A stretch of 64,000 nt of DNA, taken from Synechococcus sp. Nb3U1 (GTDB lineage: Bacteria; Cyanobacteriota; Cyanobacteriia; Thermostichales; Thermostichaceae). The translations under genes and the position numbers were made by a program. Positions 46,331 through 53,593 of the stretch are shown here, piece after piece. The notes below the pieces were generated by a model. It saw only the letters and a program-made list of their open reading frames with translations. It made no database searches and had not been told where the DNA came from. Position 1 is the first letter of the stretch. Each line of letters opens with the position of its first letter. The DNA lies in assembly GCF_021533835.1 (NCBI RefSeq), contig NZ_JAKFYQ010000004.1:1-64000 (forward strand), read 5' to 3'.

Positions 46331-47329
46331 ATGGCCAGTTCTGGATCCCCGCAGTTGCGTCATGTGTTGGTGCTAGATGACACACAGGGGCGGCGAGCCC
46401 TGATCTTGGATGCGGCCACCTATTCTTTGGGACGGGACCTGCAAAATTCCATTCCCCTGCACTCTAGCTCCATTTCCCGGCAACATGCGCTGCTGCTGAG
46501 GGTTCCGGCCAGTTCTGGTTATCGCTACCGCATTTTGGATGGCAATGCCGAGGGCAAACGGAGCACTAACGGGATCCGGCTGAATGGGATCCCTTGTACC
46601 TCCCAGGATTTGGAAGATGGGGATTTGATCGAGTTTGGCCCCGATACCAAAGCTCGCTACTACCGCCGCGAAATGGCCGAAGAAGAGATCGGGCTGTATG
46701 CCGAGTCGCTGGAGTACCGCAGCATCAAAACCAGCACCGTCAGTCCGAAAAGCACCGATCTGTTCGGAGATAAGCGGGATCGGGTTCTGCTGCTGCAACC
46801 CCACGAATATCAACGCAGCGGAGTGCTTCGGCCAGGGCTCCCGCATCCGGTCTTGGGGCTGATCTTTCAAAATCAGTGCTATTATTTCGAGCGGCTATTA
46901 GGAACCGACCTAGAGGAGGCCATAGAGCAATGCCGGAGTCGCCTGGAACATCCTCTAGAGGAACGGGAATTTTGTGTATTGATTCAAGACGTGCATGGGT
47001 ATCGTCTCGCCCTTCATCAACCGCAGTTGGTGGCTGTACCCTACGATAAGTTCCTGGAAACCACCTGTCGACTGATGCGGCGTGGCATTCGCGTGGAGGA
47101 TCGACGGTGGCGGCTGCGTAAGTTTGAGAAGTGCTTTGTCGGCTTGGATGCCGTGGCCTGGTTGGCGGGCCATTTTCAGATCAGCCGTCCTGAGGCGGTA
47201 CAGGTGGGCCAAGAGTGTCTCCAGCGCCGCTTGTTTTTGCACGTGCTGGAAGAACAGGATTTTGCCGATGAGGGCTATTACTATCGCTTCCGAGAAGATG
47301 GCGGCCCAGAAGAGCGGGTGGTGGGGTAG
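46331..47329 (+). CDS. FHA-DEP domain protein
   Basis: 332 residues from the ATG at 46331, with AGGAGG 7 bases before it. The N-terminal FHA domain (about 10-110) has YSLGRDLQNSIPL, SSSISRQHALLL and GKRSTNGIRLNG, which bind phosphothreonine. A middle region of unknown fold leads to a DEP-like domain (about 240-320: LMRRGIRVEDRRWRLRKFEKCFVGLDAVAWLAGHF). This pairing suggests an adaptor that links Ser/Thr-kinase signalling to a membrane or partner protein. It is a paralogue of the shorter FHA protein at 57980-58525, which lacks DEP. Confidence 0.85.
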   Translation: MASSGSPQLRHVLVLDDTQGRRALILDAATYSLGRDLQNSIPLHSSSISRQHALLLRVPASSGYRYRILDGNAEGKRSTNGIRLNGIPCTSQDLEDGDLIEFGPDTKARYYRREMAEEEIGLYAESLEYRSIKTSTVSPKSTDLFGDKRDRVLLLQPHEYQRSGVLRPGLPHPVLGLIFQNQCYYFERLLGTDLEEAIEQCRSRLEHPLEEREFCVLIQDVHGYRLALHQPQLVAVPYDKFLETTCRLMRRGIRVEDRRWRLRKFEKCFVGLDAVAWLAGHFQISRPEAVQVGQECLQRRLFLHVLEEQDFADEGYYYRFREDGGPEERVVG

Positions 47330-47410
47330 ATTTCACCCCCAACCCAGAATGGGGTAACCGAAGCTGGGTAAGATGTGGCGGGCACTTGTCCAGTCAGGGA
47401 ACCAGAAGCA

Positions 47411-48265
47411 ATGTCGGACGTGACTCACTCGGTAGAACGGCTACAGCAGCACGGGTGTTTTGGGGGCAGGGTCGAGTTTTATCGCCATGTCTCGCAGAGA
47501 TGCCGAACGGAGATGCGTTTTTCGGTATATCTGCCGGCCCAGAGGGGATCCCTGCCGGTGCTCTACTGGTTGTCGGGTCTCACGTGTACCGAAGAGAATT
47601 TTATGGTTAAGGCTGGAGCCCAACGGCTGGCAGCAGAGTTGGGTTTGCTGTTGGTGGCCCCCGATACCAGTCCGCGCCATTTGGGCCTAACGGGTGAAAC
47701 CGAGAACTGGGATTTTGGGGCTGGAGCCAGCTTTTATGTGGATGCCACTCAGGATCCCTGGCAGGCTCACTACCAGATGTACAGCTACGTCACCCAAGAG
47801 CTGCCAGCCCTCATCCAGGCCCATTTCCCAGCAGATCCAAATCGACAGGGCATTTTTGGCCATTCGATGGGAGGACATGGGGCACTGGTCTGTGCGCTGC
47901 GCAACCCGACTCAGTACCGTTCGGTGTCTGCCTTTGCGCCCATTGCCGCGCCGATGCAGTGCCCTTGGGGTCAAAAAGCTTTTACAGGCTATCTGGGATC
48001 CAACCGTGAATCCTGGAAAGCCTACGATGCCAGCCAGTTGGTGCTCAGTTCCCAGTGGGATCGACCCATTCTGATCGATCAAGGAGCGGTGGATCCCTTT
48101 TTGGCTCAGCAGCAGTTGTTGCCAGAAAAGTTTCAAGCCGCTTGTGCCGAGGCGGGGAAATCTCTAACCCTGCGCTACCAATCTGGTTACGATCACAGCT
48201 ACTACTTCATCGCCAGCTTCATCGACGATTACCTGCGCCATCATGCAGCTGCCTTGAGAAACTGA
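47411..48265 (+). CDS. fghA: S-formylglutathione hydrolase
   Basis: 284 residues, alpha/beta hydrolase of the esterase D family. The nucleophile elbow [10 protein letters not shown] (Ser near 152), an Asp in QGAVDPFL and a His in [12 protein letters not shown] complete the triad. [19 protein letters not shown] is typical. It splits S-formylglutathione to formate and glutathione in formaldehyde detoxification. The partner formaldehyde dehydrogenase is not in the window. Start ATG at 47411. It is convergent with the HerA-like gene, with a 29-bp gap. Confidence 0.93.
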
Positions 48266-48294
48266 GGCAAACACGTCCCTCTACAATGGGACAC

Positions 48295-51200
48295 TCATTT
48301 CGGAAGCCATGAAATCTGAAGAACTCGGCTCTTTTCTAGCTTGGTGCGCAAAGAGCGCTCTAGCACCTCTGATTCATTCAAAGGAGTGGAAGCATGATAA
48401 GACAAACATAAAGGGGTTTTCACCTTACAGGGAGGAGATAGCTGCTCTGAGGAAACATAAAATTGGCCTACTTTCAAAGTGGGAATATCATCACCAGTCC
48501 CTCCCCTCAAGGCAATTTGGTTGCGAACCACATCAATTGCCGCAGGTGAACTGGCTTTGCCAAAAAATTGGGTCAAGCAGTTGGCAATTATGTTGTGATC
48601 GATACTTTTTGGTGCTTGCGTAGCAAAAATTAAGCCCAGACCATACTTTCGAGCCTGTGCTGCCAAACGGTTAATACTTTGTTTGCAGACGGTACTTCCT
48701 GAAGAGGGCACAAAATCCTTCGCTTCATCAATAACCAATAGCCCTCTGACAGGAGAATCGAGAGGTGCTGGGTTTTTCTTGATCCAGGTAAAGAGAGTCA
48801 TGGCTAGCTGGTTCAGAAATTGCTGCTGAGCAGAAAGACTAGTAAGCCCAAGCAAGTTGATAATGGACACTCTCGTTTTTGAGGAAGTCTGATTTAACCC
48901 CAGCAAAGTCGCTGGATCTAATACTGTCCCACTCTGTCGCAGTAAGCTGTTATTGGCCTTTTCAGCCCTGAGAAGATCTGCCATCTCAAGAGCTCTTTTA
49001 GAAGCCTGACTAATTTCTGACCCAGCTTCAGGTGGGAGGTCAGAAAGCAACTCAATAAAGTCATCCAAGGTGCCAGGTTGATGAGTTGCAAAATACGTTA
49101 AAGCTAATTTTAGAATGCCTCTTTTCAATTTGGCAGTGCTGGTATTTCCAGAAGCGACAATATCTTGGAGGGCATCATGGGCCATATCAGCAGCCTGATC
49201 CAACTCTTCAGGATCTCCAGCTACAGCACCAAAATCAGGCAAAGGAGATAGAGCAAGGGGGTTCCCCGATTCTCGCCCGGGCGTCCAAATGATTACTTCA
49301 CTCTGTTCAAAATAGTGATCGGCTTTGGCTCTATCTTCTTCATCCCAGGAGTCGGGAATAGATGGCCAGGGATCCCCCATGCGAGCTAAATCATTAGCCC
49401 CATCAATCACAATCGAGGGAATCCCAAGCAATGCTGCTTCTTCAACAATCCGCTTGACGAGAACGGTTTTCCCAGAACCACTCCCAGCAAGAATAACAGT
49501 GTGCCGCACCAAGTCCTGAATGGGAAGCAAAATAGGATCCCCTACTCGGCTACCCAACAAGCACCTCCCCAGAAAAATATGTTGCTTGTCCAGTTGTGGT
49601 TTTGCCGTTGGCTTTGTAGCAGTTGATTCCCGAATAACAGGATTGGCCAGGCTCCCAGTAGAAATCGCCTGAGATGGCTCTTCAGAGGTAGCAAAATTAA
49701 AAGGTGGAGATGCTTCTAGTGGCCCGTCAGGGATCCCTGCAAACAGCCACTCTGCTATCGGGGAAAGTGCAGGCAATTTAGAGAGCGGTCGCTCCTGGAG
49801 CATCCAAGACTGGAAAGCAGAATGGGTACTAACCTGTTCAAGGGCTGATAAAACCTTCAGCTCCTCTTCAGTCGGCTGCCAGTGGATCCCTCCAGCTGTG
49901 AAGAATCTTTGTAGCAATTGCTGCGTTTTTTCGCCACCGGGCAACGGGGAGGTTCTCACCAGAATCATTTTTCTAAACGTGAGGGCTGGGTCAATGCCTG
50001 AAGCCGTGATCGCAGCATTGAGGCGAGCTTGGAAGGCTTTGGCGTTCGTTCTTTGTAAAGCCCTGAAACAAAGGTGTCTTTCTCGGTCATTCTCACGGTG
50101 GAAAATTAATCTTGCTCTAGCATGGAGCAATGGGAAAGTCTTTCCTCCAGGGAAATTAGTATCGACCTGCGCGTCAATTCCTACGGGGAGATTTCTCTCC
50201 ATCAAGAGAAAAGTACAAAGACAAGTTAAGCAGGAGCTCCAGTCAGCATCTTTACTTTCTTCTGCCATGTACTGTGCAACATTAACATTCCTTTTGGCAT
50301 CTTCAAATTGCTGACTAATTTCTCGGAAATCACTGATTTTAGGTGGCGGAGAAATTAAAGTTGCGGATCCCAGCTCTATAACTTTTCCCTCTTTTAGACA
50401 ATGCTCTCTATGTTCATGACATCGCTGCAAAACACGTCTTGGAGATAGACCTTTAATTTGCTGAAAAAACTCTGGTTTGAAAGGATAAGAAGGATAAGGT
50501 GGGACAAAGCCAGTCTTTTGATAAGCATCCGAGAGGCGGAGAGTGATCATCTTCGCCACGATTTCTTCAGAAAGGGAAGTAGATAAGCTTTCTGCCGGCT
50601 CAAAGCGTGCTGCGAAGGTGCTAACGGCAGTTTTGGTTAAAATATCCCAGGAAGCCTCTAGACAAGAAATAACGATGAGGGAGCGGAAGGAATTATCCCG
50701 CAAACCTATCAAGCCTGCTCCAATGTTGTGAATGATATTCTCTGAAGCTCGTCTTTCTTCTTCTGCTAACACTTCTTGAGGTGTCGATTTAGCAGGTGAG
50801 ACCGTATGGTGCTGTATCACAATGGGATCCAACTGATCGATGGCGATCACGCTAGGCCCCCGCAAACTCATTAACCAAGATAGTCCTGCTGCTACTTCAC
50901 TGTGAGAAGGAGAAGCAGACGAAAAACCAAATTTTTTGCGTTCCTCTGGCTCCAGTTCCAACCCTTGTATCCAGTTCGTGCCGATTGCAGAAACAGTGTA
51001 ATCATTAGAATTAGCCAGAATAATTGCCCGTACGCAGTCTCGATATTTTAGAGTATGGACGCGATCTTGAGTAGACAGCCATTGCAGAGCTCGATTAATC
51101 AAGTCACTCAAGTAGTCTTGAGGTGTCTCAGCAATCTCTTCCGAAGTCTGAGGCCTAGGGAGTGCCTGCGTAAAAATCTGGTCGATGATTTTCTGTAACT

Positions 51201-51561
51201 GGCTTCTACCATTCGGTTCTGCCATGAAGAGAGAGCTAAAATAACCTTGTACCAAGGTTTCCCAAAAGTCTCGTACATCCGTCATGTCAACCAGTACGAA
51301 TCCTGCCCCTTGCTCAAAGGCTGACTGCCTGAGTAAGCTCAACAGGTGAGTTTTCCCGGCCCCGCCAGCCCCAATCAATGGGATCCCTAAAGGAGAATCT
51401 GCCGTAGAGGATCTAAAAAGCTTGTTCAGTCGATCAAATAATTTTTCTCTCACATTGATCTGGAAATCAGGTACATCAAACTTTTGTAGTTCCCAAACCT
51501 TTTTCAGGTGAACTACCCAATCAAAATCTGCCTCTTTTAGTGCTTTCAGAGCTTCTAGCAT
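48295..51561 (-). CDS. fusion of ORC/STAND-like AAA ATPase and HerA/FtsK-like translocase
   Basis: 1088 residues with two P-loop modules. The N-terminal module has Walker A GAGGAGKTH (64-72), Walker B SVIAIDQLD (237-245) and a following helical region with GLSPRRVLQRCHEHREH, as in AAA/ORC or BrxC-like ATPases. A middle domain (about 410-600) contains a restriction-endonuclease-like or unknown fold. The C-terminal module has FLGRCLLGSRVGDPILLPIQDLVRHTVILAGSGSGKT (Walker A 692-699), Walker B LLVIDEAKDF (941-950), and HerA/DUF87-type FATQAPKSIDHNIIANC (979-995). The HerA part likely pumps or unwinds DNA as a ring. It is the last gene of a three-gene operon, overlapping the preceding gene by 7 bases. 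The protein is larger than ordinary HerA (about 500-600 residues) because of the N-terminal fusion. Confidence 0.8.
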   Translation of the reverse strand: MLEALKALKEADFDWVVHLKKVWELQKFDVPDFQINVREKLFDRLNKLFRSSTADSPLGIPLIGAGGAGKTHLLSLLRQSAFEQGAGFVLVDMTDVRDFWETLVQGYFSSLFMAEPNGRSQLQKIIDQIFTQALPRPQTSEEIAETPQDYLSDLINRALQWLSTQDRVHTLKYRDCVRAIILANSNDYTVSAIGTNWIQGLELEPEERKKFGFSSASPSHSEVAAGLSWLMSLRGPSVIAIDQLDPIVIQHHTVSPAKSTPQEVLAEEERRASENIIHNIGAGLIGLRDNSFRSLIVISCLEASWDILTKTAVSTFAARFEPAESLSTSLSEEIVAKMITLRLSDAYQKTGFVPPYPSYPFKPEFFQQIKGLSPRRVLQRCHEHREHCLKEGKVIELGSATLISPPPKISDFREISQQFEDAKRNVNVAQYMAEESKDADWSSCLTCLCTFLLMERNLPVGIDAQVDTNFPGGKTFPLLHARARLIFHRENDRERHLCFRALQRTNAKAFQARLNAAITASGIDPALTFRKMILVRTSPLPGGEKTQQLLQRFFTAGGIHWQPTEEELKVLSALEQVSTHSAFQSWMLQERPLSKLPALSPIAEWLFAGIPDGPLEASPPFNFATSEEPSQAISTGSLANPVIRESTATKPTAKPQLDKQHIFLGRCLLGSRVGDPILLPIQDLVRHTVILAGSGSGKTVLVKRIVEEAALLGIPSIVIDGANDLARMGDPWPSIPDSWDEEDRAKADHYFEQSEVIIWTPGRESGNPLALSPLPDFGAVAGDPEELDQAADMAHDALQDIVASGNTSTAKLKRGILKLALTYFATHQPGTLDDFIELLSDLPPEAGSEISQASKRALEMADLLRAEKANNSLLRQSGTVLDPATLLGLNQTSSKTRVSIINLLGLTSLSAQQQFLNQLAMTLFTWIKKNPAPLDSPVRGLLVIDEAKDFVPSSGSTVCKQSINRLAAQARKYGLGLIFATQAPKSIDHNIIANCLTQFFGKASSPAAIDVVRNQIALRGGTGDDIPTLKVGQFYVSSEQLSPPCKVKTPLCLSYHASTPLNESEVLERSLRTKLEKSRVLQISWLPK

Positions 51562-52172
51562 TGTTCAATTTTTAATCGTAGAATGTGTTTTTTGTATCCA
51601 AGGATATCAATTGCAGCTGCATCGATCTCGGGAGTGATCGAGAGAGGATCATCTAGAGGCATGATTGCGACTTGATCTTGTGCCTCCATTTGCAGAAGTT
51701 CTTGATCCAGGCGATTTCTGGGAAGATCTGAAAGCTTCTTGCGCAAATCAGACAGATAAACCCTCTGGTGTCGCCCCCCCAATTCCTGACAAGACAGAAG
51801 GATTCTTTGGTCTAGGGATATAGGCTCCGGGGGACGAATAATATCTACCAAAGACAGATTCTGCCGCTCAAGATAAGACACCAGCTTTGCTAGAACCAAC
51901 TGCAATACAGCTGCGGCCTGAGGCGATTTAGACCTTTCGATGGCTGATGGTGGAGTCTTGGTTGCCCAATCCCAAGCCTTGTCTGTCAGAACCAAACAGG
52001 TTGATCTTTTCCCGCCTTTAACTTGCGTCTTGTATTCAATTAGACCATTCTCCTCCAGAGGTTTTCTATCTCTGGAGCTATGCGCCGGCTTTACCTGAGA
52101 TTTCGTGGGCTCTTCCCCAGTCAGGATCATCCTCCAGAGCAAAATCTCGTTCTTGGGCAACAGAGGTATCAT
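51555..52172 (-). CDS. small probable winged-helix protein in the HerA/DUF559 operon
   Basis: 205 residues, soluble and charged. The N-terminal region NEILLWRMILTGEEPTKSQV ... KPLEENGLIEYKTQVKGGKRSTCLVLTDKAWDWA reads like a winged helix, with HTH then beta wing LVLTDKAW. A second helical-wing-like part lies at about 118-175 (RILLSCQELGGRHQRVYLSDLRKKLSDLPRNRLDQELLQMEAQ). It may be a DNA-binding or specificity subunit, or the operon's regulator. It begins 3 bp after the nuclease gene stop and overlaps the HerA-like gene start by 7 bases, so translation is coupled. The family is not recognised. Confidence 0.6.
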   Translation of the reverse strand: MIPLLPKNEILLWRMILTGEEPTKSQVKPAHSSRDRKPLEENGLIEYKTQVKGGKRSTCLVLTDKAWDWATKTPPSAIERSKSPQAAAVLQLVLAKLVSYLERQNLSLVDIIRPPEPISLDQRILLSCQELGGRHQRVYLSDLRKKLSDLPRNRLDQELLQMEAQDQVAIMPLDDPLSITPEIDAAAIDILGYKKHILRLKIEQC

Positions 52173-52175
52173 GGA

Positions 52176-53225
52176 TTAAGCTCCCAAGGTGTTATTCAAA
52201 GCTTGGCTCCTAGGGCGCAACCTGACTACATTACGGATCATCTCCAACACCCGTTCACAATCAGACATCACTTGATCATTTGAAATCCGTAGAACCAAAT
52301 AACCTGAAATCACGAGCTCATAATCTCTCTGACGATCAGCAGTGTAACGATTCCTCCCTCTGTGTTCATCCCCGTCAAGCTCTACGATCAGCTTACCCTC
52401 TTCCCAAAGTAGATCCACCTTGAAGGACTGCCCCGTAGTGGTTTGTATAGATTGGTTGAAGCTGAACAAGCCTTTTAACTCTGCATCACATTCAATTCGC
52501 TTTGCCAGCAGCTGCTCCATCTGACTGCCAGGATGAGGGGATCCCCTCTGGCCCAGAACCACTCTAACCGAGGTGTCAAGGAACTCAGTAGGTGCTGGCA
52601 GTTGAAGTTCAAGGGCACTGTATCCTATCGAGGCAAGTTCTTCGTGGTGGGCAAGGGCAGTAGGTACCAGCAAAACAACCCGAACCTTACTCTGGTCAGC
52701 CAGCCAGGATGCTGCTTTTGCCAAACCCAACAGGTACATCGAGCGCGGCTGGGGATCATCGGTGACCAAAGCCAGGGTTAAACCCTTGGGGCTGATGGCC
52801 TTGATCAGCTGCTGTACCTGCAAAGATCTGGGAAGCTTTGTTAACTGGGGAGGAATATTGTTCTCACACAAAGGGACTACCGCTTTCAACCACATAGTGG
52901 AGATCGATGGATCTACTTCTACTGAGATGGCTTGTATACGGAGGTGATTCAGCCATATCTCTTCTGCAGCAGTGCTTTGAGTGAACCACTGTGTTTGCCC
53001 ATACCAATTAGGCCAAAGGGACAACGCCACCTTCGCCAATACACTGAGGCACTCATCAATAATCGTCTCTTGGGCTGGAACTTGGTGCCAGAGCTTAGAA
53101 ACAAGAACTTCGTCTTGCTGTTCCGCCACTTCTGCTAGCAAAGTTAGGGTTTGTTCCACAGAGGGAGAAGACAACACCTTCACCTCACCCGCATTCCCTA
53201 ACTCTTCCCAACAGAAATTAACCAT
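52176..53225 (-). CDS. DUF559-like PD-(D/E)XK nuclease with uncharacterised N-terminal domain
   Basis: 349 residues. The C-terminal 115 residues fit the DUF559/Vsr-like nuclease fold: Glu237 in SQMEQLLA, Asp271 in FKVDLLW, Glu282-x-Asp284 in LIVELDGDEHRGRN, then DRQRDYELVISGYLVLRIS. All the usual catalytic positions are present. The N-terminal 225 residues form an unfamiliar domain (SLWPNWYGQTQWF, PKGLTLALVTDDPQPRSMYLLGLAKAASWLADQSKVRVVLLVP), perhaps a Rossmann-like or inactive P-loop domain. It is the first gene of the three-gene operon, with AGGAGG about 9 bases before the ATG. It probably cleaves DNA delivered by the HerA-like translocase. Confidence 0.75.
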   Translation of the reverse strand: MVNFCWEELGNAGEVKVLSSPSVEQTLTLLAEVAEQQDEVLVSKLWHQVPAQETIIDECLSVLAKVALSLWPNWYGQTQWFTQSTAAEEIWLNHLRIQAISVEVDPSISTMWLKAVVPLCENNIPPQLTKLPRSLQVQQLIKAISPKGLTLALVTDDPQPRSMYLLGLAKAASWLADQSKVRVVLLVPTALAHHEELASIGYSALELQLPAPTEFLDTSVRVVLGQRGSPHPGSQMEQLLAKRIECDAELKGLFSFNQSIQTTTGQSFKVDLLWEEGKLIVELDGDEHRGRNRYTADRQRDYELVISGYLVLRISNDQVMSDCERVLEMIRNVVRLRPRSQALNNTLGA

Positions 53226-53324
53226 GAGGCTTTCCTCCTTTTCTCAGGTTCGTCAGCCTCATCATGACTGAGGGGTGGACAGAGTACCTCTAGGGATCCA
53301 GAAATTCCAAACCTACAGCAAACC

Positions 53325-53588
53325 TTAAATAGAAATCGAGTTGTGCCCATCCCTACCCAGTATGCGAAACTCTCTGGCCTCTAGCGAGACCACCCAAACT
53401 TCACCCAGATCATCGATCTGCACCAACCAACGCCCCGTCCACGCATGGCAGCCTTTCCCCGTTTCAGCACAACATTCTTTGCCCAGTACATAGCCCTGTC
53501 GCCCCATCAAATACGGCGGATCCAAGATCTCCACCCGCTCTGGTAAGGCAACAGACTCTGACTTTGGACGAGGATCTTTCCTGTTCAA
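53325..53588 (-). CDS. small cyanobacterial protein of unknown function
   Basis: 87 residues from a TTG at 53588, 5 bp after the upstream stop and preceded by GGGGAG. Sequence marks are VEILDPPYLMGRQGYVLGKEC (about 19-39) and GRWLVQIDDLGEVWVVSLEAREFRIL. It looks like a small beta-rich protein. Two nearby cysteines (CCAETGKGC) could bind a metal. It is downstream of, and probably co-transcribed with, the DUF7219-like gene. I do not know a function. Confidence 0.55.
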   Translation of the reverse strand: MNRKDPRPKSESVALPERVEILDPPYLMGRQGYVLGKECCAETGKGCHAWTGRWLVQIDDLGEVWVVSLEAREFRILGRDGHNSISI

Positions 53589-53593
53589 TAGCT

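Follow-up and report, generated by a model that had tools for sequence, protein, structure and literature searches.

A DUF559 nuclease, winged-helix protein and AAA-HerA ATPase triad in Synechococcus sp. Nb3U1 as a candidate anti-invader system

Three tightly packed genes in Synechococcus sp. Nb3U1 raise the question of what a nuclease, a small DNA-binding-like protein and a large double P-loop ATPase do together, and whether they belong to a system that already has a name. The window in which they lie is the first 64,000 nucleotides of contig NZ_JAKFYQ010000004.1 (assembly GCF_021533835.1), all coordinates below being positions in it unless a locus of another genome is named. A first-pass annotation, made from the letters alone, had described the locus as an unrecognised inserted module with a role in DNA processing or defence.

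Gene layout and predicted proteins

The module occupies positions 48295-53225 (~4.9 kb) and consists of three co-directional genes on the minus strand. The nuclease gene (52176-53225; 349 aa) is separated by a 3-bp gap from a gene for a 205-aa protein (51555-52172), which in turn overlaps the gene of the AAA-HerA fusion ATPase (48295-51561; 1088 aa) by 7 bp. A Shine-Dalgarno sequence, AGGAGG, was read directly on the same strand at 53234-53239, 8 nt before the ATG of the nuclease gene. The ORFs, lengths, strand, spacing and ribosome site were all re-read as first described. Promoter and terminator scans of the module yielded no more than is expected by chance.

The nuclease consists of an N-terminal alpha/beta domain of no assigned type (residues 1-230) and a C-terminal DUF559/Vsr-like domain (residues 232-335). 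The latter had been recognised as an intact PD-(D/E)XK nuclease, and the Pfam match to DUF559 (5e-14) agrees with this, as does the near invariance of the active-site residues: E237, D271, E282, D284, H288 and D297 are kept in 37-39 of 39 sequences. A profile of the protein matched PDB entry 3hrl at 9e-9 and, in the predicted structure (pLDDT 67), the C-terminal domain weakly resembled AbaSI, PvuRts1I and the homing endonuclease I-Bth0305I. Judged by its conserved residues, the protein is an active-looking DUF559 REase.

The small 205-aa protein had no match in Pfam. Its AlphaFold model (pLDDT 74) contains a MarR-like winged helix at residues 6-72 and a second winged helix at residues 120-200, in line, if weakly, with its earlier description as DNA-binding-like. 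Top matches of the model in Foldseek included MarR and PadR proteins, at a weak E of about 0.01-0.05, and its profile gave ZitR-like matches at an E of about 0.02. Both the nuclease model and the winged-helix model have low to medium confidence. The predicted tandem winged helices make the protein a probable DNA-binding or adaptor subunit.

The ATPase was found to consist of an AAA_16/Orc-STAND-like AAA domain (~1-390), a conserved middle domain (~440-600), a linker and a HerA/FtsK domain (~660-1060). Pfam matches to AAA_16 (4e-10) and DUF87/HerA (4e-11) bear out the first reading of a double P-loop protein with HerA motifs, and profile comparison of the HerA part with the PDB returned solved HerA chains, the best at 5e-12. 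Both Walker A lysines, K70 and K698, are invariant. The C-terminal domain carries the features that define the HerA/FtsK superfamily, namely a Walker A motif, a DE Walker B (D945-E946, invariant), an arginine finger just before strand 4 (R971, invariant) and a glutamine sensor-1 (Q982, in 52 of 53 sequences). The middle domain shows alternating hydrophobic stretches and had no match in Pfam or the PDB. The N-terminal AAA domain has DQxD as its Walker B motif in all 53 sequences. Some STAND-like NTPases characteristically have a glutamine at this position, and the motif suggests slow hydrolysis, i.e., a switch.

An inserted stretch in the genus

Comparison with a congener (G902) showed an empty site. 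In that genome an FHA gene is followed after ~114 bp by the DUF7219 gene, whereas in the window 6.27 kb separate the two. The inserted stretch (47326-53593; synteny with locus L146) holds the triad, an 87-aa ORF between the module and the DUF7219 gene (53325-53588, minus strand), and fghA (47375-48265, plus strand), a convergent gene for an S-formylglutathione hydrolase-like esterase (Pfam Esterase, 3e-58) that we do not count as part of the module. Thus, the synteny gap expected of an inserted module is present, and the insertion also takes in fghA. The first-pass annotation had treated fghA as a housekeeping flank; this does not hold, as the gene lies inside the insertion and none of the five remaining genomes of the genus has it. 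Genes for tRNA-Lys and tmRNA adjoin the module region.

The base composition of the triad differs from that of the window, with a GC content of 0.46-0.49 (window, 0.547; fghA, a normal 0.563) and a GC3 of 0.41-0.51 vs. 0.63 +/- 0.07. Within the module GGATCC occurs 8 times vs. 1.4 expected (about six times), and in the flanks 181 times vs. 22.7 expected (eight times). This level fits partial amelioration rather than a very recent arrival, and the earlier remark to the same effect is a reasonable one. GGGATCCC/GGATCC is far commoner than expected across the window, GGGATCCC itself being found 65 times in the flanks vs. 2.2 expected; it is a highly iterated palindrome of the lineage and in this resembles the HIP1 of other cyanobacteria.

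Recurrence, nuclease loss and genomic context

The module recurs in Cyanobacteria, Desulfobacterota, Alphaproteobacteria and Actinomycetota. Full-length relatives, each with its two partner genes upstream, were found in Leptolyngbyaceae, Desulfobacterales, Methylobacterium aquaticum, Nonomuraea and Tsukamurella, so the three genes do occur together in distant genomes, which the first-pass annotation had made a test of the module. The winged-helix gene adjoins the ATPase gene in the 55 loci of the main clade (clade I), at a distance of 120 bp or less in 52 of them (median, -1 bp). Of the three exceptions, two (L031 and L032) have an ATPase gene split into two ORFs, the scored match starting in the second half. 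L026 and L095 are cut by a contig end; of the other 53 loci, 39 have a nuclease gene upstream, in 37 of them at 120 bp or less from the winged-helix gene. The distance matrices of the three genes are correlated with one another (0.95), as is expected of any jointly inherited genes. In the ATPase tree, the cyanobacterial sequences group with those of Desulfobacterota, at a point where several long branches meet.

The distribution is patchy. Carriers numbered at least 2 of 386 cyanobacterial genomes, at least 4 of 247 genomes of Desulfobacterota, at least 2 of 149 of Actinomycetota and at least 54 of 201 (27% of the sample) of Mycobacteriaceae, a family taken here in the GTDB sense, i.e., that of Williamsia; these counts are lower bounds because few candidates were scored per genome. 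Just three long matches were obtained among 72,556 plasmid records, and one copy of the module resides on a mobilizable Methylobacterium megaplasmid. Phage records and viral contigs contained no relatives, so the module is, as far as seen, not phage-borne. Two damaged copies of the ATPase gene were also observed: several fragments of a decayed copy in Williamsia muralis (L034:8085-10479), and, in Leptolyngbya PCC 7375 (L030:10931-12505), a gene broken by an intervening segment that carries a 460-aa ORF and is probably an insertion element.

A second clade (clade II; L072-L076, Leptolyngbya order) has the same layout, with a deeply divergent ATPase of 1053-1063 aa encoded behind a DUF559 nuclease gene and a gene of ~355 aa. 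The ATPases of the two clades are homologous over 1001 columns and so are their nuclease domains (E 5e-14). The layout has thus been maintained, or assembled anew, across a very long period. The N-terminal region of the clade II nuclease differs from that of clade I. Profile comparison of the middle genes (205 aa in clade I, ~355 aa in clade II) gave no significant similarity, and we therefore claim no kinship between them. The clade II ATPase had no match in the cyanobacterial phylum sample, a sample that itself holds no known positive. At two clade II loci (L074:12991-14660 and L075:4086-7339), two co-directional genes precede that of the nuclease, one encoding an N6/N4 DNA methyltransferase and the other ~200 codons long; this is possibly an extended, modification-bearing version of the module.

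Fourteen of the 53 clade I loci (10 in Mycobacteriaceae and 4 in Desulfobacterota) lack a nuclease gene, and in each of these the winged-helix and ATPase genes stay. The nuclease-less loci are spread over several branches of the ATPase tree, including one clade of four; among them only L102 retains a remnant, a 16-aa stub exactly at the old site. The winged-helix and ATPase pair is thus the constant core of the module. Its retention through repeated loss of the nuclease argues for a function of the core beyond cutting, and cutting would seem not always to be needed.

Neighbours of the module are mostly housekeeping genes, and a PADLOC analysis of 143 neighbours, which had no control set, gave a weak defence signal, the largest families being methyltransferases with two members each. 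The check for defence islands proposed in the first-pass annotation had a mixed outcome. Some copies lie beside an Mrr gene and a type IIG R-M system (L033), near a SIR2 gene (L067, Desulfobacterota) or beside a PIN-type gene (L093), but most lie outside dense defence islands. At L067:16332-18001, the SIR2-like gene and, after it, what looks like the beginning of a HerA gene lie 5 kb away from a module copy that lacks the nuclease. Most Mycobacteriaceae loci (L093-L126) lie within or close to the S10/spc cluster of ribosomal genes, and in Tsukamurella the module lies between rpsQ and rplN. This site looks like an insertion hotspot, and the location could reflect long, stable residence.

Relation to known systems and proposed function

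Neither Pfam, PADLOC nor NCBIfam contains a named system that matches the whole triad. PADLOC and NCBIfam matches were partial and mostly to HerA-type parts, and literature searches for DUF559 together with HerA or defence returned nothing relevant. Even so, the first-pass description of the module as unrecognised goes too far, since the triad fits the outline of a class predicted in 2024 from comparative genomics (NAR), the anti-invader 'HerA/FtsK capture systems', which combine an Orc/CDC6 AAA+ protein, HerA/FtsK, a wHTH and an REase (PMC10853773). The Orc/CDC6 capture systems carry, between their AAA+ core and the Orc winged helix, an inserted inactive REase, and they have an active REase from one of two families, one of them AbiJ-like and the other left unnamed in the main text (PMC10853773). 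They share with the triad a HerA/FtsK with the signature R and Q residues, a winged-helix protein within a short operon (the triad's wHTH being a model of medium confidence) and a patchy, mobile distribution; for their Orc/CDC6 AAA+ the triad has an AAA_16 domain that could be of Orc or STAND type, and for their active REase the active-looking DUF559 protein of 39 of 53 loci. They differ from it in that the triad has AAA+ and HerA in one chain of 1088 aa, an REase of DUF559/Vsr-like type and a tandem winged-helix protein, and the middle domain of its ATPase gave no Pfam or PDB match to an inactive REase; the main text of the paper names neither DUF559 nor Vsr, cyanobacteria or actinobacteria. 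The Orc/CDC6 HerA/FtsK capture systems are the closest class, of which the triad is likely to be a member.

Other systems share less with the triad. DUF4297-HerA is a proven anti-phage complex (PMC11291478) whose operon, like that of HerA-SIR2, couples a HerA-type ATPase to an effector such as a dsDNA nuclease; membership was rejected since Pfam and PADLOC detected no DUF4297 or SIR2 effector, and the triad has an extra fused AAA domain, an extra winged-helix subunit and a Vsr-like nuclease. BREX shares an Orc/CDC6-type AAA+ (BrxC-like), and BREX-related capture (BRC), a relative added to the predicted anti-invader operons by PMC12839542, has HerA/FtsK as well; BREX was rejected because the BrxC_BrxD Pfam match reached 0.14 only and the unit has no PglZ, BrxX, DUF4007 or TGT. 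DndFGH (SspFGH) is also restriction-like and made up of three genes, with DndG as its winged-helix subunit besides a HerA/FtsK domain and a nuclease. It was rejected as DndH joins SWI2/SNF2, an inactive methylase, an REase and HerA in one chain, an architecture absent from the triad; matches to DndH were weak (0.048 and 1.3e-4) and fell in the HerA part, and neither DndF nor DndG was matched. The best PADLOC match of the HerA part was mad8 (1.2e-27) of MADS (mad1-mad8), a system also rejected, as the triad matched no other mad protein and the unit lacks a methyltransferase and a kinase.

We consider the triad to be a horizontally spread, stand-alone system against invading DNA (phage, plasmid or conjugative), with a probability of roughly 0.6. 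Conserved gene order across phyla, the matching layout of clade II, near-invariant catalytic residues, joint inheritance, the patchy distribution, the empty site, the low GC and GC3, the tRNA-Lys and tmRNA neighbours and the copies beside other defence genes all favour this reading, as do the proven HerA-nuclease anti-phage pairs and the predicted Orc/CDC6-HerA-wHTH-REase operons. The small number of defence-island settings, residence at S10/spc, loss of the nuclease in 14 of 53 loci, the lack of copies in phage and viral records and the modest confidence of the two smaller protein models count against it. From its domains, the AAA-HerA protein would probably assemble into a ring, in which the Orc/STAND-like AAA domain would bind ATP and act as a loading or sensing switch, and the HerA domain would translocate double-stranded DNA. 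The tandem winged-helix protein, translationally coupled within the operon, may dock the complex on DNA or join the nuclease to it, and the DUF559 nuclease would then cut the captured DNA. As the unit has no methyltransferase, self would more likely be told from non-self by the state of the DNA (replicating, entering or with free ends) or by an invader trigger than by modification.

The persistence of the core without the nuclease is also compatible with an ATPase that maintains a mobile element or the chromosome through segregation or DNA transfer, with the winged-helix protein as a site-specific binder and the nuclease as an accessory. A HerA/FtsK/VirB4-like domain, the copy on the mobilizable megaplasmid and the long residence near the Mycobacteriaceae ribosomal gene cluster would suit such a role, which we nevertheless regard as unlikely: the conserved unit has no relaxase, integrase or transmembrane partner, none of the three proteins has a strong hydrophobic segment, and plasmid records yielded so few long matches. 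Slightly less probable still is a repair or recombination module like archaeal HerA-NurA, in which HerA would translocate on broken ends and the DUF559 nuclease would resect them. HerA-NurA, too, pairs a HerA translocase with a nuclease, here encoded in one operon, and NCBIfam models of repair HerA and CedD matched the HerA part at 1e-10 to 4e-12. However, Pfam detected no NurA domain, the triad has an additional AAA domain and a winged-helix protein, the nuclease is frequently lost, no adjoining Mre11/Rad50-type genes were seen, and a repair role sits poorly with so patchy a distribution and with a congener whose site is unoccupied. A toxin-antitoxin-like or abortive-infection unit, with a triggered AAA switch, a nuclease that cuts host DNA and a winged-helix protein acting mainly as repressor or inhibitor, is improbable, for the STAND-like DQxD motif, the MarR/PadR-like first winged helix and loss of the nuclease in several lineages, as expected of a costly toxin, are offset by the winged-helix gene staying with the ATPase gene upon that loss and by a HerA translocase being unusual in such units.

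Returning to the anti-invader reading, the two deep clades may represent an unnamed, phylum-crossing defence family whose invariant core would be the winged-helix protein with the fused AAA-HerA machine, rather than nuclease plus HerA, a proposal that we put at somewhat below even odds. With the nuclease as an optional effector, the core alone might block invading DNA mechanically, by capture or extrusion and without cutting. The triad is small (4.9 kb), intact and found from cyanobacteria to mycobacteria, and the lineages with and without the nuclease constitute a natural experiment that makes the role of the HerA motor in such systems directly testable.
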